A DNA stretch of 45,552 bases from a virus, in the IMG/VR virus record IMGVR_UViG_3300036792_000543, positions 1 to 45,552 of that record. One strand, 5' to 3'. The notes under the pieces were generated by a model. The model saw nothing but the letters and a program-made list of their open reading frames with translations, had not been told where the DNA came from and ran no database searches. Below, piece after piece: positions 219 through 45,263 of the stretch. A program made the translations under genes and the position numbers. The first letter of the stretch is position 1. Each line of letters opens with the position of its first letter.

Positions 219-467
219 CTAGCTTGCTTTCTGCATGGGAAGGACAACCTCCATGCCATCGAGATAGGCCTGAAGGTCTGCGCGCGTAATGAGGGTTACG
301 CCCCATTCCCTGCGCGCGCGGATCTGACCGCGCTTGATGCGGCGCCAGATGGTTGGCTCGCTGAGACCGGTGGCAGCAGCAGCTTCCGGGATGCGGTAAG
401 CCAGCTTCCAATCGGGGAGGCTGCCACTTTCCATCGTTTTCGCGGCGGCGTGCGTTTTCGTGCTCAT
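219..467 (-). CDS. helix-turn-helix DNA-binding protein (excisionase/AlpA-like)
   Basis: An 82-residue protein with a single winged-HTH of the MerR/excisionase type at about residues 25-70: YRIPEAAAATGLSEPTIWRR, then KRGQIRARREWGVTLITRADLQAYL. This is the usual layout of Xis/AlpA-type HTH proteins, with recognition helix TIWRRI and a basic wing. The start ATG overlaps the stop of the upstream recombinase by four bases (ATGA), so the two are translationally coupled. A recombination directionality factor or a small transcription factor are both possible; the neighbouring recombinase favours the first. An alternative far-upstream start would only read through the recombinase gene in another frame. 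Confidence 0.78.
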   Translation of the reverse strand: MSTKTHAAAKTMESGSLPDWKLAYRIPEAAAATGLSEPTIWRRIKRGQIRARREWGVTLITRADLQAYLDGMEVVLPMQKAS

Positions 468-1135
468 GACTTCGCCTTCCGCTTCAATTTGTTGGTGCGT
501 GCGTAGACCGTGCCGGTCTTGCAGCCGAACTTCTTTGCGATCACGGCCGCGCCGATGCCCTTCTTGCGCATGGCAAGCATCTTCCTGGCGTCGGCTTTTG
601 AGATGAGTTCTGGGCGACCGAGATACATGCCCTTGCGCCGGCATTCGGCCATGCCGCGTGTGGTGCGTTCTACAATCTGGTCTCGCTCATGCTGCGCCAT
701 CGCACCCGTGATGTTGATCATCAGCCGGCCGGCAGCGGTCGTGTTGTCGAGATGCGGTTCGGTCAGGCTGCGCCATGTAACGCCCTCTGTGTTCAGCTCG
801 CGAAGGATGCCGAGGATCTGGGAGACGTCACGGCCCATGCGGGACAGAGAGTGGAATAGAATGGTGTCGCCGCGTTCGGCGAACTTCATCATCAGCTTGA
901 ACTGAGGGCGCTTAGCATTCAGTGCGGAAATCTTCTCGACATATATCTTCTGGCAACCCGCTGCCTTCAAAGCCGTGATCTGAACATCCAAGTTCTGGTC
1001 TTCTGTCGAAACACGCGCATAGCCGATGACAATGGCCGTGGACGGCACCAAGGATAAAAACGGGCCTTTCTTTGGCAGAGAATTTGCGCGCTGTTCGCGC
1101 GTGGCAGTAATCTGCTTTTTGCGAAGAGCGCTCAT
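464..1135 (-). CDS. serine recombinase (resolvase/invertase family)
   Basis: A 223-residue small serine recombinase. After a basic N-terminal extension of about 35 residues comes the catalytic block GYARVSTEDQNLDVQ with the nucleophile at Ser43, then SLSRMGRD, LTEPHLDNTTAAGRL, MAQHERDQIVERTTRG and KGMYLGRP, all standard landmarks of the resolvase domain. The C-terminus (KKGIGAAVIAKKFGCKTGTVY) is the HTH_7 DNA-binding domain. Length fits Tn3 resolvase/Hin-like enzymes and not large serine integrases. It is coupled on both sides by ATGA overlaps. It may resolve dimers, invert a segment or act in integration; no target site was identified. Confidence 0.92.
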   Translation of the reverse strand: MSALRKKQITATREQRANSLPKKGPFLSLVPSTAIVIGYARVSTEDQNLDVQITALKAAGCQKIYVEKISALNAKRPQFKLMMKFAERGDTILFHSLSRMGRDVSQILGILRELNTEGVTWRSLTEPHLDNTTAAGRLMINITGAMAQHERDQIVERTTRGMAECRRKGMYLGRPELISKADARKMLAMRKKGIGAAVIAKKFGCKTGTVYARTNKLKRKAKS

Positions 1136-6365: not shown

Positions 6366-7016
6366 CTACCGCCTCTGCCACGATCCTATCACACGCCCTT
6401 GAATATAGGCTTCATCGATCGTGCGTTCGTAAGGATTGTATCTCGGGTTGTCCGATGAAATGCGCACCCGCGGCGGGTCAGATTGAGCAATAAACTCGAC
6501 CCGTTTCAGCACAAGGCCCATGCCGTCCCACACCACAAAAATTCCTGGCGGCGACGCGACGGTGTCTCTGTAATCGACTAGCACCTTCTCGCCCGGTGCG
6601 AGCGTGCCGAGCATCGAGTCACCGATTACCTCAAGCACTCGCACGCGATCGGCGTCGACGCCGAAGGCAGAGCGAAATTCCGCGCTGGGAAAATAATAGC
6701 GGGCCCGAACAGAGTCGTCGTCGCCTTCAAGCGCGTCTTCAAGGCCACCTGGCCCCGCAACGGCGCGGACGTTCAATTCCAAAAGCTCTTTATGGTGGCT
6801 GTAGTCGTTGCCCTTGATGGCGAAGGCCAGCCATTCCGGTGACACGTCCAAGACCTTCGCCAGCCTGCGAATCGCCAGAAGATCTGGCTCATTCTTATCT
6901 ATTTCCCAGCTTGCAACTGTTGTTTGCCCTGCATTTATCGCCTTACCCAGTGTGGTTTGGGAAAGGTGCTTGCCCTCTCTAGCCTCTTTCAGGCGCTTAC
7001 CGAGCGAACTTTTCAT
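6366..7016 (-). CDS. CI/C2-type phage repressor (XRE HTH + S24 peptidase domain)
   Basis: 216 residues. The HTH at about residues 4-60 (GKRLKEAREGKHLSQTTLGK, NAGQTTVASWEIDKNEPD) is XRE-type. The C-terminal S24 domain has catalytic Ser134 in VIGDSML and Lys171 in GLVLKRVEF. A possible self-cleavage region is VRAVAGPGG at residues 83-91, so RecA-stimulated autocleavage and SOS induction are plausible. It should bind the two operator pairs that flank it (5839-5871 and 7056-7088). ATG at 7016 begins the HTH properly; in-frame ATGs 7 and 14 codons upstream are alternatives, and no clear SD is seen. Its own promoter is not obvious. Confidence 0.93.
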   Translation of the reverse strand: MKSSLGKRLKEAREGKHLSQTTLGKAINAGQTTVASWEIDKNEPDLLAIRRLAKVLDVSPEWLAFAIKGNDYSHHKELLELNVRAVAGPGGLEDALEGDDDSVRARYYFPSAEFRSAFGVDADRVRVLEVIGDSMLGTLAPGEKVLVDYRDTVASPPGIFVVWDGMGLVLKRVEFIAQSDPPRVRISSDNPRYNPYERTIDEAYIQGRVIGSWQRR

Positions 7017-7055
7017 GAGAATAACGCATAACGGCATATTGCCGGACGCGCTAAC

Positions 7056-7095
7056 CACGAAACGCGCTTGACAATATCGCGATACGCGCTAACCC
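7056..7095 (+). promoter_or_regulatory. pR-like promoter with two repressor operators
   Basis: TTGACA at 7068-7073 and TAACCC at 7090-7095, with a 16-base spacer. Operators CACGAAACGCG (7056-7066) and CGCGATACGCG (7078-7088) are 22 bp apart, matching the spacing at pL. From TTGACA to the -10, pR and pL differ only in three bases at the operator centre (ATA against TAT). An extra repeat of ACGCGCTAACC at 7046-7056 and 7084-7094 may mark a third weak site. Confidence 0.72.
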
Positions 7096-9754: not shown

Positions 9755-10176
9755 GCCGGCTACCGCAGATCCTCGGCCGCGTGACCCTTGACGAGGCGCA
9801 GGGACGATTGCTCGCGGAAAGCGTCGTGATCACAATTTCCGCCGGCCAGTTCCGCCAGCACATCACTAAGCGAGCGCGCTTGGGCGACGTCATATGGGTG
9901 CAGGAACCGTTCTATGCCTATGCGCTGACCGGCATGTTTCGTGTCCCGCCGGTTATGCCTGGCGTTGTTGCCGGCCCGCGCTTTGAAGCGAAGACCCCGG
10001 ACAAATTCAAGATGTACCGGCACAACCGCCGCTATCACACAGATGCGTCACGTCTGCCGCGCGAGCGCAGCCGTTGCACGCTGGAGATCGCCAGCTTCGA
10101 CGCCGCAAGCCTCAACTGCATCTGCCACATGCAGAACATAGATGACTTCATGGCAGCTCGGAGGGCAGCGGCATGA
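9751..10176 (+). CDS. ASCH/PUA-like domain protein
   Basis: 141 residues. GDVIWVQEPFYAY in the middle, followed by RHNRRYHTDASRLPRERSRC and TLEIASFDAASLNCI, follows the phage ASCH-like pattern (GD.LWVRE.., then a conserved R..LP RW.SRITLEV block). ASCH domains have a PUA-like fold and often bind RNA or modified nucleotides. The exact role in phage early operons is unknown. Coupled on both sides by ATGA. Confidence 0.6.
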   Translation: MSRLPQILGRVTLDEAQGRLLAESVVITISAGQFRQHITKRARLGDVIWVQEPFYAYALTGMFRVPPVMPGVVAGPRFEAKTPDKFKMYRHNRRYHTDASRLPRERSRCTLEIASFDAASLNCICHMQNIDDFMAARRAAA

Positions 10177-10664
10177 TCCGCCGGATTCGCACATGGCTGC
10201 CGAAATGTCTTTGGAGCGTCGGTTGGCTTCAGGAACCAATCAAGGCTGACCCTAAAGCATTGGCGAAGCTTCTGATGATCTTCCCGGGGGGAGATATAAG
10301 CGGATATAGGAAACGACTACCGAACCGCCGTCCCGCCGTGCGCCAGCAAATGAAATGGCAGGACAGCCAGGGCAACGACAAGGTAGCCGATGTTTCCTTC
10401 GGGTTCGGGCCTGACGGCAAGATCCGCGAGGTATTCTGCATCGCCGCCAAAGACGGGAGCGACATGCAATCACTTGTCCACGACGCTTGTATTGCCACCA
10501 GCATTGTTTTGCAGCGCGGCCACAGCATTGCCGACTTGGCCAAGTCCTTCGGGGAATTGCGCGAGGAAGGTCAACCCGTGGGCAAGCCGGCTTCCATCAT
10601 GGGCGCGCTGGCGCGGCTTGGCGCTGCGGTAGAGCGCCAAGTGGGTGGGGAGGGCGGCGGTTGA
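10173..10664 (+). CDS. TSCPD-domain-like protein
   Basis: 163 residues. GKIREVFCIAAKDGSDMQSL, DACIATSIVLQRGHSIADLA and then KSFGE look like the TSCPD domain, otherwise found at the C-terminus of coenzyme-B12-dependent ribonucleotide reductases and as stand-alone phage proteins. The N-terminal third is basic (RIRTWLPKCLW; GYRKRLPNRRPAVRQQ). Inferred link to nucleotide metabolism or its regulation is tentative. ATGA-coupled to the gene before; its TGA overlaps a TTG start of the methylase gene. Confidence 0.6.
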   Translation: MIRRIRTWLPKCLWSVGWLQEPIKADPKALAKLLMIFPGGDISGYRKRLPNRRPAVRQQMKWQDSQGNDKVADVSFGFGPDGKIREVFCIAAKDGSDMQSLVHDACIATSIVLQRGHSIADLAKSFGELREEGQPVGKPASIMGALARLGAAVERQVGGEGGG

Positions 10665-11236
10665 GCGATTGGCAATTCGGCCACCTGCGCACATTTGGCT
10701 ACGATCTGATCGTGGCTGATCCGCCATGGCGCTTCGAGCTATATGAGGAAGAGACCGGGAGCCAAAAGGGTCCGGCGTCTCAATACCCGACAATGAGCCT
10801 GGACGAGATAAAGGCTCTTCGCATCGGCGAGCTTGCCCGCGGCGACTGTCTACTGCTGCTTTGGACATGCGGATGGGCCATTGCCACCGGACAGGCACAG
10901 GAAGTCGCGCGAGCATGGGGATTCCAGCCCAAATCTGAGATCATCTGGAACAAGCGCACGCGCTCAGGGAAATGGCGTGTAGGGCCTGGTTACCGAGTGC
11001 GCACTATGCATGAGCCGATTTTGCTTTGCACCATCGGCAACCCATTCCATGCAGCATTTCCATCCGCATTTGACGGGCTGGCCCGCGAACATTCGCGCAA
11101 GCCGGAGGAATTCTACCAGCTCATTGACAGAATGGCCGGCAGCCTCAGTTTCCGCGCCGATCTTTTTACCAGGACTGAGCGCGCTGGCTGGGATGGCTGG
11201 GGCGACGAAGCCGGAAAGTTTCCGGTGGCCGCGTGA
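10661..11236 (+). CDS. MT-A70 family adenine N6-methyltransferase
   Basis: 191 residues if translation begins at TTG 10661, which overlaps the previous TGA (TTGA) and gives MSDWQFGHLRTFGYDLIVAD. The catalytic motif DPPW is at residues 20-23. Further landmarks are LLLLWTCGWA, SEIIWNKRTR and a late REHSRKPEEFY block with DLFTR, all typical of MT-A70 enzymes that methylate adenine in DNA or RNA. In a phage this probably modifies phage DNA against host restriction. No ATG exists near the domain start, so the TTG is the best choice. Confidence 0.88.
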   Translation: MSDWQFGHLRTFGYDLIVADPPWRFELYEEETGSQKGPASQYPTMSLDEIKALRIGELARGDCLLLLWTCGWAIATGQAQEVARAWGFQPKSEIIWNKRTRSGKWRVGPGYRVRTMHEPILLCTIGNPFHAAFPSAFDGLAREHSRKPEEFYQLIDRMAGSLSFRADLFTRTERAGWDGWGDEAGKFPVAA

Positions 11237-11568
11237 GTGAGTTCTTCATCGTGCTTTCGCATCCCGCCACCGAACATGAAACGCTGCCCGAGGCCATGGC
11301 ATCGCAGCGCGCGCTCCAGGCCCATGTCCCCGAGAGAACGCACACCATCTACCGCTGCAAGCGCTGGCTGACGGGCGCAAAGCATTTCACCAAGATGGTG
11401 GATCTCCTGAATGATATCGTGCGCGATGGGCTGACGCCGGCCAATCTTGACCGTGCGCGCGTCCTCCAAGTCACGATCGGCAACCGCACGCCGCGGCTGA
11501 AAGCTCTGCATCGTGTGCCGGGCCCGCCTGAATATCAGCCGCCTGCCGCCGCCAGGACGGGCGCATGA
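11233..11568 (+). CDS. hypothetical early protein
   Basis: 111 residues with a GTG start overlapping the methylase stop (GTGA). SEFFIVLSHPATEHETLPEA, HTIYRCKRWLTGAKHFTKMV and DLLNDIVRDGLTPANLDRAR suggest a compact mixed fold. No family recognised. The C-terminus is proline-rich. Position between the methylase and the replication protein. Confidence 0.65.
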   Translation: MSEFFIVLSHPATEHETLPEAMASQRALQAHVPERTHTIYRCKRWLTGAKHFTKMVDLLNDIVRDGLTPANLDRARVLQVTIGNRTPRLKALHRVPGPPEYQPPAAARTGA

Positions 11569-12635
11569 GCCGACCAGCGTTTGACTATCGCTATTCGATC
11601 ATACCGGGCGGGGCGGTGACCGACCCGAATGTCTCAATGCGCGATCTCCAAGTTTTGGCCCTACTGGGGCGGCATACCGACAAAAAGGGATGGTGCTGGC
11701 GTAGCCAAGTCGAGATGGCAGCTGAGCTGCGCTGTGGGCGCGCCACCATCAGCCGTTCGATCAAGCGGCTGGTGGATGCCGGCTGGTTGGAACAGGAAGC
11801 GTTGCCGCGCGGGCGCACCGTTCATGTGAAGGGTCAGCAGCCGTTTAGCGCCTTCAAGTACCGGGTCAAGATTGACCGTGAAGACGAGTGCGATGCACCG
11901 TCCGCTGGAGACGTGCCCAATAATGGGCACCCTCGTGACGTGCCCGAAAATGGGCAGGAGGTGCCCATAGCTGATGGGCACGGGGTGCCCATCCAGACGG
12001 GCACCCATAGAAGGACTCCTTTCAAGGACCCACTAAACTCTCTCGCGCCCGCTGACGCGGTCGAGAATGCGATGGTCGCTTCGCTTCGGGAAGGCGAGGT
12101 TGCCCGCTGGCCAGAATTCCGCTCAGTGGTCGACAAATCTTGGCCTGGCGGATTTCCGCCCAAGGACGAGGTTGCCTGCCGCAAGCAATTCGATCCGCTC
12201 GCCCGTGAACGCGGCGCAGATCTATTGATGGCCTGCGCCCAATTGCATGGCGACGAGGAGCGTAGAATCGCCGAAGCGCGCACCCGCGGCGCCGGGAAAG
12301 CGATGCTCAAACGGCCCAGCAACTGGCTGCGTGAGGGCGAATGGCAGGGCTACATCCCGCAGGCGGAGGCGCTGGCGGCACAACTCGCCGAGATGGCAAC
12401 GGCGCTGGGGCGAGTGCGCCGCTCGTTGGGCGACGGAATTTTTCGACTATTCCGGGAGCGGATGGGTGATGCGGGATTGGCCGCGCTGGCTGGCGTCACG
12501 ATCGAACCAAAAGCCCATTTCCTCTACACCCGACCGGTACAGCGCACGCTGATGGAAAGGCACAGCGGCGCAATTGAGCGCCACCTGGGCGAGCCACCAA
12601 CATTCACGCTGGTTGCCGAAAGGAAGGCGTCATGA
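11565..12635 (+). CDS. phage replication protein with HTH domain (lambda O-position)
   Basis: 356 residues. The N-terminal winged HTH (residues about 20-85: MRDLQVLALLGRHTDKKGWC, QVEMAAELRCGRATISRSIK, RLVDAGWLEQE) is the replication-initiator-type domain. A variable linker at residues 112-150 (DVPNNGHPRDVPENGQEVPI) is encoded by inverted repeats (11913-12004). The C-terminal half is helical (FPPKDEVACRKQFDPLARER; KAMLKRPSNWLREGEWQGYI). Gene position, HTH and internal repeats together resemble lambda O, which carries its own origin. ATGA-coupled at both ends. Confidence 0.78.
   Translation: MSRPAFDYRYSIIPGGAVTDPNVSMRDLQVLALLGRHTDKKGWCWRSQVEMAAELRCGRATISRSIKRLVDAGWLEQEALPRGRTVHVKGQQPFSAFKYRVKIDREDECDAPSAGDVPNNGHPRDVPENGQEVPIADGHGVPIQTGTHRRTPFKDPLNSLAPADAVENAMVASLREGEVARWPEFRSVVDKSWPGGFPPKDEVACRKQFDPLARERGADLLMACAQLHGDEERRIAEARTRGAGKAMLKRPSNWLREGEWQGYIPQAEALAAQLAEMATALGRVRRSLGDGIFRLFRERMGDAGLAALAGVTIEPKAHFLYTRPVQRTLMERHSGAIERHLGEPPTFTLVAERKAS
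11913..12004 (+). repeat. origin-like inverted repeats inside the replication gene
   Basis: Four hairpin-like units: 11913-11930, 11940-11957, 11961-11981 and 11985-12004, each of the form GTGCCC-N6-9-GGGCA(C/G). The first is GTGCCCAATAATGGGCAC. Units are 4-9 bp apart. Lambda O carries its origin iterons inside its own coding sequence, so this is the best candidate for the phage replication origin. The repeats encode the degenerate VP..NGH linker. Confidence 0.7.
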
Positions 12636-34017: not shown

Positions 34018-34869
34018 ATGGACTATCTGATTGCACCATACACGGTGGCTATTGGCAGCGGAGATACGGCGCCGGTTTCTGGCACGCCTGGTGAGGCTAC
34101 CGATGGCAATCCAGCGACCAATACTCCGGCAACAGAATGGCCGGCTTATGCCTTCAACGCGATCCAGAAGGAACTGATCAATCTCTTGGCTGCGGGCGGT
34201 GTGACCCCGAACCGCAGTGTACTGACGCAGGTTGCGACGGCTGTTCAGGCATTGGCCGCCGCCGGCGCTGGTTCGTATGCCGCGGACACCGGTGCAGCGA
34301 ATGCCTATGTCATTGCACCCGCGCCGGCAATTGCCGCTTATGCGGGCGGACAAACCTTCAATTTCATCCCTGCAAACGCCAACACGGGCGCCGGCACCAT
34401 CAATGTGAATGGGTTGGGCGCAAAATCCATCGTTCATCCTGATGGGTCGGTTCTGCAGTCAGGTGACATCCCAGCTGGCGGCCTTGTTGAGGTTATATAT
34501 CAAGCCACGCTGGGCAAGTTCATTCTGATGACTAATGCGTCGAGCTATTACAGCTTCGGCGGCAGCGGAAATTTTCGCATTCCTGGCACTAAGGCATTTA
34601 TGCAATGGGCCACATTCTCCATCAATGCCACCGGGACCACTATCGTTCCAGCCGGTTGCGTGTGGGGAAGCCAGTCCATCACCTTTCCGATCTCTGCGCC
34701 GCCGAACAACCAACTGTACATGTATGGCTTCGGCATCAATGAGGCCGTCAATGGGCCATTTGCCACCGCTACGGCAACCATGGGTTCCGGTTCGGGAACC
34801 ATCTATGTGACGACCGACAGCAGCTATACCCAGCCCGTTACGGGCATCGTCTGGCAGATCGTTTCCTAA
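34018..34869 (+). CDS. tail fibre protein with gp53-like C-terminal domain
   Basis: 283 residues. The N-terminal third (ATNTPATEWPAYAFNAIQKE, LINLLAAGGVTPNRSVLTQV) is the common fibre attachment segment. A beta-rich middle follows (GQTFNFIPANANTGAGTINV; SVLQSGDIPAGGLVEVIYQA). The C-terminus (WGSQSITFPISAPPNNQLYM) resembles the putative tail fibre gp53-like domain. GAGGA Shine-Dalgarno. This is probably the primary virion fibre following gp48. Confidence 0.85.
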   Translation: MDYLIAPYTVAIGSGDTAPVSGTPGEATDGNPATNTPATEWPAYAFNAIQKELINLLAAGGVTPNRSVLTQVATAVQALAAAGAGSYAADTGAANAYVIAPAPAIAAYAGGQTFNFIPANANTGAGTINVNGLGAKSIVHPDGSVLQSGDIPAGGLVEVIYQATLGKFILMTNASSYYSFGGSGNFRIPGTKAFMQWATFSINATGTTIVPAGCVWGSQSITFPISAPPNNQLYMYGFGINEAVNGPFATATATMGSGSGTIYVTTDSSYTQPVTGIVWQIVS

Positions 34870-34874
34870 GGAAA

Positions 34875-35312
34875 ATGAGCATGGGCAAAGTATTTTTCGA
34901 TCCGACTGTCGGCGAGCGCGGCGGTTTTCTGCACGAAGGGTTGCACCCCGCAATTCCCGACACGGCCAAGGAAATTCCGCACGAAGCGTTCGATGCGCTT
35001 CTCGCGGCGCAGGGAGCGGGCAAGGAAATTTGGCCTGGCAAAGATGGATTTCCGGAGCTTCGCGATCCCGCCCTACCCACGGGCGAAAAGGCGCTAGCCA
35101 ATTTGCGCGAGACGAGGAATCGGCTGCTGTCAAAAACGGACACCTTGGTCAATCGCCATCGCGATGAGCGTGATCTGGGCGAGAAGACAACGCTATCTGA
35201 TGCGGACTTCAGTGCGTTGCTCGCGCGCAGGCAGGAACTGCGGGATCTGCCCTCCAAGTCCCAGGACCCTTGGTCGGACCATATGGCCCTGTTGGGCCAG
35301 CTCCGGGCGTAA
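34875..35312 (+). CDS. tail fibre assembly/chaperone-like protein
   Basis: 145 residues (ATG 34875, with an alternative at 34881). KVFFDPTVGERGGFLHEGLH and AIPDTAKEIPHEAFDALLAA recall the N-terminal domain of tail fibre assembly chaperones (Y.d....GF......IP..A..I). The C-terminal half is a long charged helix (ALANLRETRNRLLSKTDTLV). It follows the fibre gene by five bases, as fibre chaperones usually do. Confidence 0.75.
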   Translation: MSMGKVFFDPTVGERGGFLHEGLHPAIPDTAKEIPHEAFDALLAAQGAGKEIWPGKDGFPELRDPALPTGEKALANLRETRNRLLSKTDTLVNRHRDERDLGEKTTLSDADFSALLARRQELRDLPSKSQDPWSDHMALLGQLRA

Positions 35313-35349: not shown

Positions 35350-37578
35350 ATGAAACGCTCTCTGTTGAGCGCGCTTTGCGCGTTGCTGGTGCTTGTCTTT
35401 GAGCAAGCCGCCTATGCCCAAGGCACCACCACCATCAATAGCCTGCCGGCCGCATCTACGCCGCTGGCGTGCAACGAAGTGGTCGCGTCCTGGCAAGCGA
35501 GCCATACGGTCAAGATCCCGGTTAATGCCCTTGGCTGCATCTATCAGGGCTCAAGCGCGCCAAGCGTTCCCCTGGCGGGCCAGTATTGGTTCAACACCAC
35601 CACAACGGCTTGGGTTCTCACCCAGTATGATGGAGCCCAGTGGGTTCAGATCGGCACTCTCGACACAGCGGCTCATACCTGGACGCCGGTGGGAGGAGGC
35701 GGCGGCGGCACGCCTGGGAATCCCACGGCTACCATCGGTGCCACGGCCGTCAATGGCAGTGCCACGACCTATATGCGCAGCGACGCCGCCCCCGCGCTTC
35801 CTGCGACGCTCCCCGCCCTCAATGGGTCGGCGCTGACCAATCTGAACGCTTCCGCGATCAGCTCCGGTACTGTCCCGGCTGGGAATCTGCCGGCGGCGAC
35901 CACGAGTGCCCAAGGTGCGGTAAAACCAGATGGCACGACTATCACAATTGTCGGTGGCGTGATTTCGTCCACCACCGGCGGCAGTGGCAACGTCACTGGT
36001 TCCGGATCTTCAACATCGGGCAACCTGGCAGCATTCAACAACACGAGCGCTACGGGCATTCAAGATAGCGGTGTCGTCCCAAGCACCCTGGCGACCCTGA
36101 CGGGGACGCAGACCCTCACCAACAAAACCCTTACGTCTCCGACACTCACAGCGCCCGCCCTTGGCACCCCAACAAGCGGCACCCTGACAAACGCAACGGG
36201 CCTGCCGATCTCGACCGGAGTTTCAGGCCTCGGCGCAGGTGTGGCGACAGCGTTGGCAGCCGCGCACGACACCACCGGAGGTGTCTGCACGGTCGGTGGC
36301 AGCGGGTGTCCGACGGGTGGTGGTTCGCTCGCCCTGACAGATGGGACGCATACAGTCACCGGTGCCACCCAAATTACAGCTTCCCCCGGCCTTGTGGTTG
36401 GTGGAACAACTCCGAACGCGACCCTTGGTGTCGCTAGTCCTGACAACGCCTACAGCGCCAACCACACTGTGGCCGCGTCCGATATGGCAGCGCAGATGTC
36501 GCTCACTGGCACCGCTACCCTGACCATTCCGGCGATCAGCTCGACGGTTTTTGCCAGCGGCATGACCAGCTGCTATGCGAACAATGGAACCGGCACCTGG
36601 ACGATTTCCAGCACGCCGACGATCAATGGTTTGCCAAGCACCAGCTTGGTTCCGGGATCGGGCGCTTGCCTTGTCAGCAACGGCACATCGATCGATTACG
36701 TTCCTGGCATGTCGCTGCCTTCCAGCACGCGCTTGGGTGGTGTTCTGACGACTTCCCTTGCTTCGCATAACTTCGCCACAGGGATCAGCAGCACGACAGG
36801 AGCGCTCACAGGCGCACAGCCGGGCGTCAGCGATCTCTCGGGTTTGGGAACGGGTAACGCGGCGGCGCTCGCTATCCCTCACGACACGACGGGCGGACCT
36901 TGCACGGTTGGCGGCGGCGGTTGCCCTGGCGGTTCGGGTGGTTCGCTGACACTTACCGACGGCACCAACACCGTTACCGGGACAACGCAGATCACCGTCA
37001 CTGGCGGAACAGTGGGCGGCACAACACCCAATGCAACGCTTTCGATTAGCGGCAGCGGTGGAAACGGCACCGTGCTCGTCAACACCACAGATATCTCTTC
37101 CTCCGTCGCAAGCGTCAGCATTCCGCTCTCGACCAGCTACAAGAAATTCCGGGTTGAAATCTGGGGAATGAAAAGCAGCGCGACGAGCGGCCTGATAACA
37201 GAGCAGATAACTACCTCGTCCAACGGCGGTACTTCCTATTATACCGGTTCGACTGACTATGAAGCGGCGCAGGTATATGGCGGCTCGACCGCCGCGGTTG
37301 GAATTGCAGGGACGCAGGCATACTGGAGCGCAGGAAATTTCGATGCAGCGATTTCGACAACCTACCGAGGTCTAAGCATCGTAGATATCGACACGAGCGA
37401 TGGTACGTATTACCCGTCCGCATTGGCTCGCTTTGGTGACCCGCGTAGCTCGCCCGCTTACTTCATAGTGGACTACTCGCAATGGCTTCAGCACGCGGTG
37501 CAGGTCAATGAGATCCAAATCACGCTTAGCAGCGGCAATATGACGGGCGGCCATATCAGAGTTTGGGGCATTCAGTGA
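35350..37578 (+). CDS. large repeat-rich fibre-like protein with Sec signal peptide
   Basis: 742 residues. Residues 1-24 ([20 protein letters not shown] then YAQ) form a classic Sec signal with an A-X-A cleavage site, odd for a virion protein. Gly/Ser/Thr-rich beta repeats follow, including the phage-fibre motif [20 protein letters not shown] and [12 protein letters not shown]. Two homologous modules begin HDTTGG at residues 306 and 511 and run through [19 protein letters not shown] / [19 protein letters not shown] to TTPNATL, each with a paired-cysteine loop. The C-terminal domain ([20 protein letters not shown]) is beta-sandwich-like. Either a secreted adhesin-like product or a fibre with a vestigial signal. 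Confidence 0.82.
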
Positions 37579-39179
37579 TCTTTCGGTTGATTTGCATAGC
37601 CTTGGTTCTCGCATCATTTTGCAGCTGGTCGGAGGCACGGCCGCACGGCGGCACGGCGTTGCCAGTGACGGGCGTGTCAGTCGTCATTAATAACTTCAAC
37701 GGTGCGGGAACATCTGAGACAGACGAGATTTCGCATCTCGATGTGGCCAATAATCAGATCAACGCGGTTGATGGGCAGCTTCTACAAGTTGGAAATGTCG
37801 TCTATCAGTTCGGGACTTCCTACGGCTGCGGAAGAAAACTAAATACGCCCTCGACACCGTTTTGCGGATTTCCGGTCTATACGTCGACCGATCTTCTGCA
37901 TTGGACAAAGTTAGGGTTTCTTTTCGACGCCACCACGCCGACATGGCAGACCAATTGCGCCACCGATAATGGCTGCTGGGGTCCGCACATGATCTACAAC
38001 GCGGCGAATAATAACTATGTGCTTTGGTTCGTCGGAACCGGCGCGCCAGGCGCGACGGACAATTACTATATGTTCACATGCACGCTGGCATCGGCGGGCG
38101 CGAACTTCGCCTGTACGCAAGGCACGGCACCGAGCCACCTAGCGCACCTTGGCGATGACTATCACCTGTTCGTCGATCCCAATACCCAGATCGGCTACAT
38201 CGTTTATAGCGCTCAAGGCAGCTTTTACGTTTACATAGACCAACTCAATTCCAGCTATACAGACAGCACTGGAACCTCAATTCTTGTTCAGAACGACGGC
38301 CCGCACGAAGGCGAGGGGATGATCTATAACGCCGGGTCTTCGCGGCCTTATGTCGTCATGTATTCCGGCCAATGTCCCAATTATTGCCAAAGCGGTCTTC
38401 CCAGCTGGTCGATGACGGCTACAAGCCCGATGGGAACTTATGCAAATGCAACAGAGGTAAACGCCACAAGCTGTGGCGGACAGATGCGGTCTGCGGACAC
38501 ACTCACCGCCGCAGGAAATACAATCCAGATGTACCAGTCAGAGCAATGGTACAACCAAGACAATCCCGGCATGGCGAATATCTATTATCAGCCTCTATCC
38601 TTCGATGGCGGCGGGAATGTCGTGCCATTTTCATGCAACACGACGGTATCGGTGGCAGGGTTTCTGACAAATCCGCCGACGCCCCCGGCCGCACCGTCTG
38701 GCGCCGATCAGCAGAACTTCGGAGACCAGTATCTTGGGTTTGCGGATTTCTTCACGCCCTCAATATGGCGCATGCAGACCTTCGTTCCGACATCCACGAC
38801 CCTCTCAAAAATTCTCATGCCTCTTGGGCAGGCTTATACGTCGGGAGGAGCGCTCAACGCTGACCCTGTGGTTGAGCTTGTCTCACTCGATGGCAGCAAT
38901 AACCCGGTTTCGGTTCTCGCCAGCGTGACCGTACCTCGCGCGAGCCTGCAATGGTCGCTGCAAATGACCGAGATGGATTTCAACTATAGCGGCCTCACAC
39001 CGGGCGCTCCCTATGGAATCATCCTTAAAAACGCCGCATCTCAGGGATTGGTAGCGGAAGCCCTCTACACCGGGAGCACCAATCCATATTCGGCCGGGGT
39101 CATGCGCTATACTACCAACAGCGGAAGCACATGGACGACGGTCGCAAACCAATCTTTAGAGTTTGCTACATTCCCCTGA
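37575..39179 (+). CDS. secreted GH43-like beta-propeller protein
   Basis: 534 residues from GTG at 37575, overlapping the previous stop (GTGA). The signal peptide [20 protein letters not shown] is followed by repeated blades: [58 protein letters not shown] and [20 protein letters not shown]. This pattern (acidic residue, then a 'tstDL.hWt..G' strand, then 'GP.m.yn...n.YvlwfV') is that of five-bladed glycoside hydrolase family 43/62-type propellers. The C-terminal 150 residues ([20 protein letters not shown]...) look like a carbohydrate-binding jelly-roll. Inferred to bind or cut surface polysaccharide; catalytic residues not proven. Confidence 0.75.
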
Positions 39180-39180
39180 G

Positions 39181-39939
39181 CTAAGGCTTGATGTATAGCC
39201 GACCCGTATAATCAATGCGGTGCAGGAAAGGCTTGATCCCCCTGGCGGCGAAATACTCGTCCACCGCTTTGCGCGCGCCGGCCCAATGCCCGTAATCATC
39301 AATGATGAGAATGCCATTAGGCGATAGTAGCGGGAAAAAGTGTTCAAGCTCGTGCTTGGTGGATTCGTACCAATCCGTATCCAGGCGCAGGATCGATATC
39401 TGTTGGGGCGACGTTGCCGGTATCGTGTCCTCGACCTTGCCTTTGACATAGCGGATGCGGCTAGGCGGATATCCCGTGCTAGACATGTTCTTGCGGACTA
39501 CTTCCAGAGGCGCGACGCACCAAACCTGCGCGTCTTTGCCGTTCTGAGTCAGAAGATCCTTTGCCGTTTTCCCTCCTTGCTCAACATCTTCTTCTGTCGG
39601 CTCGGACATGCCTTCGAACGTGTCGTAGAGAAACATATCGACGTCGTTGCGACCTTCGCTGAGGAACATCGAAGCCGCGGCCATGCTGCTGCCGCCCTGC
39701 CAAACGCCACATTCCACGAAATCACCCGGCACATTGTTCGCAGTGACATATTCCACTGCGGAACAGACAGCCGCCAAGCGTTCAATGCTCGTCATGGTGT
39801 GTGGCTTTGCCCGATTTATAATCGCGCGCGTAGCCGGCGAAAGGTCGGGGAAACTATCTTCCCAATTTCGTTTCGGGGAATAGTGCGAAACTTCGATACC
39901 TGCGAGCCGCAGACCTTTTTTGGCAATCGATTTCAGCAT
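39181..39939 (-). CDS. TylF/MycF-type O-methyltransferase
   Basis: 252 residues on the strand opposite to the late operon. VPGDFVECGVWQGGSSMAAA is the SAM-binding loop. FLYDTFEGMSEPTEEDVE and LRLDTDWYESTKHELEHFFP, then LLSPNGILIIDDYGHWAGAR, with Asp pairs for metal binding, are the hallmarks of the TylF/macrocin O-methyltransferase family, which methylates sugar hydroxyls. It meets the propeller gene tail-to-tail with one base between. Likely cargo that modifies host surface glycans. Start at 39939 gives MLKSIAKKGLRLAGIEVSHY, a usual start for the family. Confidence 0.9.
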   Translation of the reverse strand: MLKSIAKKGLRLAGIEVSHYSPKRNWEDSFPDLSPATRAIINRAKPHTMTSIERLAAVCSAVEYVTANNVPGDFVECGVWQGGSSMAAASMFLSEGRNDVDMFLYDTFEGMSEPTEEDVEQGGKTAKDLLTQNGKDAQVWCVAPLEVVRKNMSSTGYPPSRIRYVKGKVEDTIPATSPQQISILRLDTDWYESTKHELEHFFPLLSPNGILIIDDYGHWAGARKAVDEYFAARGIKPFLHRIDYTGRLYIKP

Positions 39940-40060: not shown

Positions 40061-40612
40061 ATGGCTGAGTCCGCTGGTGCGCAGTGGTGCGCTCGCTTTC
40101 CCACCAGCGCGAGCCTGGGCGACCTCGCGGAGCCATTCCAGGGGAATGCCAAGGCCTTCATTGACGCTTTGCGGGATGCAGGCGCGTCGGTTTCGATCAA
40201 CGCGACATATCGGCCGCCGGAACGGGCTTATCTGATGCACTTTTGCTGCCTCGTGGCGGGATATCGCGACGAGGGCAAGGTGTTCCACCAGATCGCTCCT
40301 GGCGACGTTCCGGCCATGCAGGGCGTCGATATCGACTGGACTTGCGGCGGCGACCCGGGCGGGGCGCGCGCGGCCGCGGTGGCAATGCGCCAAGGATACG
40401 AAATCGCCTATCCCGCTGCCCTAGTCAGCAACCACACCCGCCGGCTAGCCATTGATATGACGATCCAGTTCACGGGCGCCATCAGCGTCAAGACGGGCCA
40501 CGGCTCGCTCGCGGCCGCAGCCTGCCAGTCCGATCTCTGGCCGGTTGGCAAGAGCTATGGCGTGATCAAATTGCCCAGCGATGCGCCACATTGGTCTGTC
40601 GACGGTCATTGA
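40061..40612 (+). CDS. endolysin, M15-type peptidase
   Basis: 183 residues. KAFIDALRDAGASVSINATY and RPPERAYLMH followed by MQGVDIDWTCGGDPGGARAA and LVSNHTRRLAIDMTI match phage M15-like peptidoglycan peptidases. SNHTRRLAID (residues 123-132) fits the SxHxxGxAxD zinc motif apart from Arg in place of Gly, and His177 in APHWSVDGH would be the third ligand. It cleaves the peptide cross-links of the host wall at the end of infection. No signal peptide, so release would depend on the holin. Confidence 0.88.
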   Translation: MAESAGAQWCARFPTSASLGDLAEPFQGNAKAFIDALRDAGASVSINATYRPPERAYLMHFCCLVAGYRDEGKVFHQIAPGDVPAMQGVDIDWTCGGDPGGARAAAVAMRQGYEIAYPAALVSNHTRRLAIDMTIQFTGAISVKTGHGSLAAAACQSDLWPVGKSYGVIKLPSDAPHWSVDGH

Positions 40613-42110: not shown

Positions 42111-42380
42111 ATGGACCTTTCAAATCCGAAAACCCAGGCGCTGATTGGCGCTGTGATCCGCGCCATACTGGTTGCTGCTGGCGGTGGCGGTCTCATGTCC
42201 GGCGATCAAATCAGTTCGCTTGCGGGCGCACTGGCTGTTGTTGCCGGCCTCGGATGGTCGCTATGGCAGAAGCGCAATTCCGTTTCACATGCCACGCTGA
42301 CCACTGCGGTGCAGCAGACCGCTTCTAACCCGCAGAACGCCAGCGCGATCATCGCAGCCGCCAAGCAGGGGCATTTCTGA
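42111..42380 (+). CDS. holin-like protein
   Basis: 89 residues with AGGAG 8 bases upstream. Two hydrophobic helices, ALIGAVIRAILVAAGGGGLM (about 10-29) and SLAGALAVVAGLGWSLWQKR (about 36-55), are followed by a hydrophilic tail with TLTTAVQQTASNPQNASAII. The topology matches small class II-type phage holins. Located between lipoprotein genes in the lysis region. Function assigned from topology and place. Confidence 0.75.
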   Translation: MDLSNPKTQALIGAVIRAILVAAGGGGLMSGDQISSLAGALAVVAGLGWSLWQKRNSVSHATLTTAVQQTASNPQNASAIIAAAKQGHF

Positions 42381-42673
42381 TGCGCGTTGTCTTCATTGCA
42401 TCTGCGCTTCTGCTGACTGGATGCATTTCACTGCCAGCGGCAACGCCACCGCCGATAATCCCTGCGCCGACACCAGCACAAAAGTCCGTACCGTGCGTAG
42501 ACTATGAAAAGATCGACCCCAGGTCATTCCCTCCTGCCACCTATGACGCCGAATTCGCAAAAGCGTCGGCGGCGCTGGATGCAGCAAAGCCTCCCGGCTA
42601 TCAGGTGATCGACGGCTTTCTGACAGACTATCACAACATGCGTATCGCGGCCGGCTGCCCAAGCTCGCGTTGA
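42380..42673 (+). CDS. small lipoprotein, outer spanin candidate
   Basis: 97 residues. The signal MRVVFIASALLLTGC carries lipobox LLTGC (Cys15) and is followed by a proline-rich stretch (LPAATPPPIIPAPTPAQKSV), the two features of Rz1-type outer spanins. The C-terminal half (FPPATYDAEFAKASAALDAA) is helical. One-base overlap with the holin-like gene (TGATG). Spanin function is inferred. Confidence 0.65.
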   Translation: MRVVFIASALLLTGCISLPAATPPPIIPAPTPAQKSVPCVDYEKIDPRSFPPATYDAEFAKASAALDAAKPPGYQVIDGFLTDYHNMRIAAGCPSSR

Positions 42674-45095: not shown

Positions 45096-45176
45096 TGGTT
45101 AGGGTGATGGTTAGGGTGTTCTCTCGGTAAGAACGAAAATATCTTTTATTTTCCGCTGCTTACCGCCAGAAAATGG
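45096..45176. other. candidate attR: arm-like repeats plus tRNA 3' end
   Basis: TGGTTAGGGTG occurs twice (45096-45106 and 45108-45118) with a 12-bp period. It is followed by an AT-rich stretch with the inverted repeat AAAATA/TATTTT (45136-45152) and by CCGCCA/TGGCGG (45163-45168/45174-45179), whose right arm is the tRNA-Ser 3' end. Direct repeats, an AT-rich segment and a tRNA 3' end together resemble an integrase attachment site. The matching attL would lie left of base 1. Confidence 0.45.
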
Positions 45177-45263
45177 CGGACAGGGAGGGATTCGAACCCT
45201 CGAACGGCTTTCACCGTTACACACTTTCCAGGCGTGCGCCTTCAACCACTCGGCCACCTGTCC
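45174..45263 (-). tRNA. tRNA-Ser (anticodon GGA)
   Basis: 90 nucleotides read leftward. Acceptor arms GGACAGG/CCTGTCC, D-arm TGGCCGAGTGGTTGAAGG, anticodon loop CTGGAAA with GGA (genome 45227-45229), a long variable arm (ACGGTGAAAGCCGT), T-arm GAGGGTTCGAATCCCTC, discriminator G and encoded CCA. All features are those of bacterial tRNA-Ser reading UCC/UCU. Its 3' end points to the prophage. Confidence 0.97.

Follow-up and report, generated by a model that had tools for sequence, protein, structure and literature searches.

A candidate surface-glycan slot closing the late tail operon in a tailed, probably temperate phage, and a recurring class of fibres with a predicted export signal

Gene layout and domain assignments

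The stretch of DNA considered here, hereafter the window, is the whole of the IMG/VR virus record IMGVR_UViG_3300036792_000543 (positions 1 to 45,552; 45,552 nucleotides). Our subject is a set of three adjoining genes at 35350–39939, which code for a fibre-like protein, a GH43-like protein (the propeller) and a TylF-family methyltransferase. An earlier note on this DNA had described two secreted proteins and an opposite-strand TylF-type enzyme standing between the fibre chaperone and the lysis genes, and had proposed that the enzyme caps surface sugars of the lysogen while the secreted pair recognizes or trims the same glycan. The open reading frames (ORFs) bear out this arrangement, with export as a prediction. 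The genes of the region are as follows:

34018–34869, plus strand: ordinary tail-fibre gene without a signal peptide, our reference fibre (phrog_1858 tail fiber, E 1.7e-10)
34875–35312, plus strand: tail-fibre assembly chaperone (phrog_188, E 1.3e-24; PF16778, E 1.1e-4, below its cut-off)
35350–37578, plus strand: fibre-like protein of 742 residues with a predicted Sec-type signal peptide, without a Pfam family
37575–39179, plus strand: GH43-like protein (propeller) with a predicted signal peptide; its C-terminal ~150 residues are unassigned
39181–39939, minus strand: TylF-family sugar O-methyltransferase of 252 residues, convergent with the propeller gene (PF05711, E 6.6e-45)
40061–40612, plus strand: probable endolysin, M15-peptidase-like by eye; without a Pfam or PHROG match
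42111–42380, plus strand: holin (PF23987, 27.0 bits, exactly at the cut-off of 27)
42380–42673, plus strand: weak Rz1-like lysis gene (PF23793, E 0.016)

The TylF assignment is strong: the protein scores 153.8 bits against PF05711 (cut-off 23), matches 4cdz (E 3.9e-32), NovP (2wk1; E 2.8e-27) and MycF (4x7v; E 7.1e-26) in the PDB, and bears the motif LD.D.YEST...DDY, aligned with 4cdz and NovP, which we take to be the metal/active-site motif. The glycosidase call for the propeller is weak. The identity given in the earlier note survives as a GH43-like similarity below the Pfam cut-off: PF04616 is matched at E 1.6e-5 to 1.7e-5 with 24.9 bits, short of the gathering score of 32.2, and the PDB match is to the GH43_12 structure 7jvh (E 1.4e-5 over 62 residues). 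A GH43 profile of other Pseudomonadota proteins places the first Asp of the DP motif at Asp66, and leaves the other catalytic residues (Asp/Glu) unaligned. This numbering uses a corrected start, GTG at 37575, giving 534 residues, which is probably the right one in preference to TTG at 37563 (37563–39179, 538 residues), because it overlaps the stop of the fibre-like gene (which ends CAG TGA at 37578) as GTGA. The same stop/start overlap makes it probable that the two genes are translationally coupled. At its other end, the propeller stop (39179) is separated by one base from the stop of the opposite-strand TylF gene (39181).

The phage is probably temperate, since the window encodes a CI-type repressor (6366–7058) and a serine recombinase of the DNA-invertase type (464–1135, minus strand; phrog_125, E 7.7e-58). 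An acetobacteraceous host is likely, because the relatives nearest to the DNA-circularisation protein in the phage collection come from Komagataeibacter phage phiKM1, and Acetobacter phage phiAP1 is likewise among the best matches. If the host is indeed of this family, the TylF and GH43-like genes look imported, because just 6 of 200 Acetobacteraceae genomes carry a TylF relative at E 1e-30 or better, and none of 60 of them a GH43 at E 1e-20 (the controls worked). The same two genes occupy the lowest-GC stretch of the window (~54–55% vs ~60%). A tRNA-Ser gene near the right end (45174–45263, minus strand) is a possible attachment site; the search by this tRNA gave no direct repeat pair joining the two window ends.

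From its orientation and its family, the two grounds for the call, the TylF gene probably serves lysogenic conversion. The proposed methylation of a sugar on the lysogen's surface is backed by two chromosomal TylF relatives from Acetobacteraceae (55–56% identity; loci L253 and L254 in our numbering) that adjoin glycosyltransferase-type genes, namely a group 1 glycosyltransferase in the former, and in the latter a GT61 above the cut-off and a PMT_2 just below it. These neighbors, and the many acyltransferases of a surface-sugar-acting type in the same slot of other phages (see below), argue against the very improbable alternative that the enzyme modifies a small molecule or some part of the phage instead of the cell surface, an idea suggested by the structurally solved relatives NovP and MycF, whose substrates we take to be antibiotic sugars.

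We likewise consider it improbable that the predicted-exported proteins serve the lysogen in a manner unrelated to phage receptors, for example, as an adhesin and a glycan-scavenging enzyme. Fibre proteins of prophages can function as adhesins, and the typical substrates of GH43 enzymes are plant-type glycans, both of which would suit such a role; however, the two genes lie on the tail-operon strand right after the chaperone, and a promoter scan of the region found two promoter-like sites against 2.4 expected in shuffles, which is at chance level. A terminator scan of the same region gave no excess over chance.

Fibre-like proteins with a predicted export signal

Signal peptides were predicted with a home-made scorer of the n/h/c pattern, not with SignalP. 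Applied to 27 genes of the window, it marks the fibre-like protein (score 6.93, with predicted cleavage after residue 23 at an AxA-type site), the propeller and two short lysis-type lipoproteins, leaving the ordinary tail genes unmarked. At the predicted cleavage site the fibre-like protein lacks a Cys and, by this lipobox test, it does not read as a lipoprotein. Among controls, the scorer found a signal peptide in none of 87 relatives (of at least 150 residues) of the ordinary fibre at 34018, in none of 107 relatives of the baseplate protein, and in 12 of the 594 ORFs that lie upstream of the baseplate gene; most of these 12 look like tape-measure-type proteins. One of these 12 (L147) looks like a true signal-peptide fibre.

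The fibre-like protein matches no Pfam family and only weakly a PHROG of unknown function (phrog_8309, E 0.0039), and a PDB search with it gave nothing useful. Its N-terminal part is partly similar to the fibre-like ORFs of L092, L084, L083, L093, L088 and L094. An alignment of ten signal-peptide fibre N-termini (A3), used as a query, found 46 viral loci, some of which repeat earlier ones (L207 = L178, L218 = L111, L225 = L202). The signal peptide stands directly before a conserved mature start, QFxxGQxLTAAxLN, in 45 of the 47 matching ORFs, a fraction biased by the signal held in the query itself. A pattern search independent of the signal gave 42 distinct hits with a signal and nine without; inspected by eye, the latter comprise two instances of the module lacking a signal (L199, L226), one signal-like sequence whose start was not found (L232), and six chance matches. 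Acyltransferases occur near A3-type fibres in 6 of the 46 loci (L208 and L209 being near-duplicates), always on the opposite strand.

In L226, a tailspike-like ORF (10003–12012) with a PGQVLT..LN module and no signal peptide lies a few genes after a signal-peptide copy. L217 (12626–14653) and L219 (12699–14774) have a second signal-peptide fibre-like ORF ~4–5 kb after the first, and L211 (12809–14590) looks similar.

Through its C-terminal domain, the L178 fibre matches tail fibres from Klebsiella and Pectobacterium phages as well as BcepC6B gp19 and PBR31 orf035. The tail fibre of Klebsiella phage Kp2, which is without a signal peptide, matches phrog_11393 over its full length, whereas PBR31 orf035, BcepC6B gp19 and the proteins from L111, L152 and L178 match its C-terminal part only; the last four begin with a predicted signal peptide and orf035 with a signal-like sequence, the weakest of the set (4.31). 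This difference in coverage suggests, at the level of sequence, that a single type of fibre tip is shared between a virion-type fibre and proteins with a predicted export signal ahead of it. We regard this recurring class of fibres with an export signal as the most interesting point of the analysis; within the search terms used, we found no description of signal-peptide tail fibres as a class in the open-licence literature.

A proposed slot with interchangeable parts

Comparable layouts, assembled from different parts, are seen in other phages. The prophage of Paraburkholderia xenovorans LB400 (L178/L207), like the window, combines a signal-peptide fibre with an opposite-strand TylF-family gene; it differs in the ordinary fibre between the two, in the weaker TylF match (PF05711, E 3.2e-13) and in having no propeller. 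Similarly, Bradyrhizobium phage ppBdUSDA122-1 (OP596612) shares with the window a signal-peptide 'tail fiber protein', here with a Collar domain, a convergent opposite-strand enzyme overlapping it by a few bases, and then a lysis gene, an amidase, while the enzyme is an acyltransferase in place of TylF and the propeller is again absent. The same tail-to-tail pairing of a signal-peptide fibre with an opposite-strand acyltransferase is found in L202, L244 and L246, and in L002 a signal-peptide fibre at the end of the tail genes faces a cluster of FkbM- plus TylF-type methyltransferases. An 84.8-kb viral contig (L027, 5723–15059) has a TylF gene in a structural-looking region, followed by several consecutive ORFs with signal-peptide-like starts, as judged by eye. 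These cases came through fibre or TylF queries or were picked from the survey below, and hence speak for recurrence, not enrichment. Two further arrangements were noted: in the Bradyrhizobium phage (L203, 4370–5818), two signal-peptide fibre-like genes follow each other, the first annotated as hypothetical, and in L003 (6360–7920; duplicate L005) a TylF gene lies opposite structural genes and convergent with a glycine-rich fibre-like ORF.

Most TylF relatives do not stand beside signal-peptide fibres. Among the viral contigs, 93 stretches with such relatives were found and 80 kept, forming 46 distinct groups; at the scorer's threshold, ORFs were flagged near 6 of the 80, of which only that of L002 looks like a signal-peptide fibre, with L027 falling below the threshold.

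Baseplate-anchored searches provided 28 viral and 80 named genomic loci, 108 in all. The acyltransferase profile is positive in 17 of them, and 81 hand-chosen slot ORFs (loci L095–L202) include 19 of the Acyl_transf_3 family and one TylF. Signal-peptide fibre-like genes were hand-counted in 20 of the 108, mostly from Burkholderiaceae and Acetobacteraceae. These were hand-picked: 15 came from one scan with the scorer, L152, L170, L198 and L199 from another and L188 from homology, after the exclusion of lysis-type lipoproteins, membrane enzymes, short ORFs and L113/L114; the weakest are L195 (142 residues), L198 and L199. Some of the predicted-exported slot proteins contain beta-helix domains of the tailspike/pectate-lyase type (L181, L167, L198). 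One of the 81 slot ORFs is a phytanoyl-CoA-dioxygenase-type protein.

We tentatively read the region, with slightly less than even confidence, as a modular surface-glycan slot with which the late tail operon of this tailed, probably temperate phage ends; its parts would be interchangeable and do not form a fixed cassette. The fibre-like and GH43-like proteins would be made together late in the lytic cycle, as their overlapping genes on the tail-operon strand suggest, and, being predicted Sec substrates, would be exported to occupy or trim the glycan that serves the phage itself as receptor, both on the dying cell and on debris from it, such that progeny would not be trapped. The TylF enzyme, in turn, would O-methylate a surface sugar of the lysogen and thereby block re-adsorption. 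In other phages, different exported fibres or beta-helix proteins would take up this slot, and acyltransferases would stand in for the methyltransferase. The joint role first proposed is thus divided: by their location in the late tail operon, the fibre-like protein and the propeller probably act at lysis, and the opposite-strand gene alone is placed like a lysogenic-conversion gene. What remains of the single cassette is that the genes adjoin, that the exported pair looks coupled and that the fibre/modifier layout recurs in unrelated phages.

We reject the triplet as a conserved, co-inherited system: the exact combination is unique in everything searched, and the propeller matches the window alone among 202 loci. 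Several observations weigh against the slot reading. The propeller is an orphan whose GH43 match lies below the cut-off. It is found in none of the 108 baseplate-anchored loci, and searches for its relatives, run without a positive control, returned 0 of 249 family-wide and 0 of 398 phylum-wide; its single-sequence AlphaFold model, which would bear on the five-bladed propeller fold of GH43, is unusable (pLDDT 38.7). The C-terminal 178 residues of the window fibre are without a match in the phages searched, so its membership in the exported-fibre class rests on architecture and the partial N-terminal similarity. The signal-peptide calls depend on a home-made rule, and a protein exported to the periplasm would still have the outer membrane to pass, unless lysis came first. 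The PGQVLT..LN/LTAAxLN module may itself be a virion-attachment part, as it occurs without a signal peptide in L199 and L226. Lastly, when modifiers are taken as the 17 acyltransferase loci plus L111 and L178, with glycosyltransferases excluded, they are unassociated with signal-peptide fibres in the 108 loci (4/20 vs 15/88, p = 0.75) and in the 86 loci whose downstream sequence spans 4 kb or more (p = 1.0); a statistical linkage of the two is accordingly rejected.

This want of co-occurrence, the signal-less modules and the many different genes that the slot takes would all suit an explanation with unlinked parts, in which the fibre-like protein and the propeller are virion or host-range components that use their hydrophobic N-terminus to assemble or attach, and a permissive slot has by chance received TylF, a conversion gene with no link to them. 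We hold this to be unlikely, given that a full n/h/c pattern with an AxA site precedes the conserved mature start in nearly all of the A3 relatives, subject to the query bias mentioned above, and that none of the ordinary fibres and baseplate proteins in the control sets scored as having a signal peptide.

Returning to the proposed glycan slot, the occurrence of its layout with different parts in other phages suggests that the receptor-handling proteins of tailed phages may have exported copies. A wider generalization, which we offer as a possibility on the unlikely side, is that 'decoy fibres' and 'receptor-destroying enzymes' are encoded by many of the tailed phages that infect Gram-negative bacteria: on a fibre tip or a glycan-cleaving domain, a Sec signal peptide would take the place of the virion anchor, and export shortly before lysis would mask or strip the receptor on the producing cell and on debris, with lysogens adding an acyl- or methyltransferase, encoded on the opposite strand, that would modify this glycan as well. 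Escape from trapping on receptors freed at lysis is known in few cases; if the proposal is true, a widespread class of fibre-like genes that encode an export signal, masked by the annotation 'tail fiber protein', would explain such escape in general and in a way that is simple to test, and many genes annotated as 'tail fibres' might code for something other than virion components.

Comparison with known systems

Prophage serotype conversion proceeds by O-antigen modification (oac, gtr of the SfV/Sf6/P22 type). The window resembles these systems in the presence of a sugar-modifying enzyme of a temperate phage that would alter the receptor on the lysogen; in contrast to them, its enzyme is a TylF-type O-methyltransferase placed tail-to-tail with predicted-exported candidates for glycan binding and cleavage.

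Xanthomonas phage PBR31 likewise has a signal-peptide-like fibre (orf035) before its lysis genes, and an opposite-strand gene, orf040, annotated as possible O-antigen modification; the paper on this phage describes gp40 as an esterase of the SGNH-hydrolase family with a signal peptide (PMC10975493). Unlike the window, PBR31 has a podovirus-type gene order with a tailspike and is without a methyltransferase. A precedent for receptor blocking at lysis is Llp of phage T5, a lipoprotein directed against a protein receptor, FhuA, which it blocks (PMC4342426). Llp is an exported phage protein that would keep progeny off debris, as is proposed for the window proteins; the window protein is, unlike Llp, fibre-like with a predicted signal-peptidase-I-type site, and the two are compared for how they would work only.

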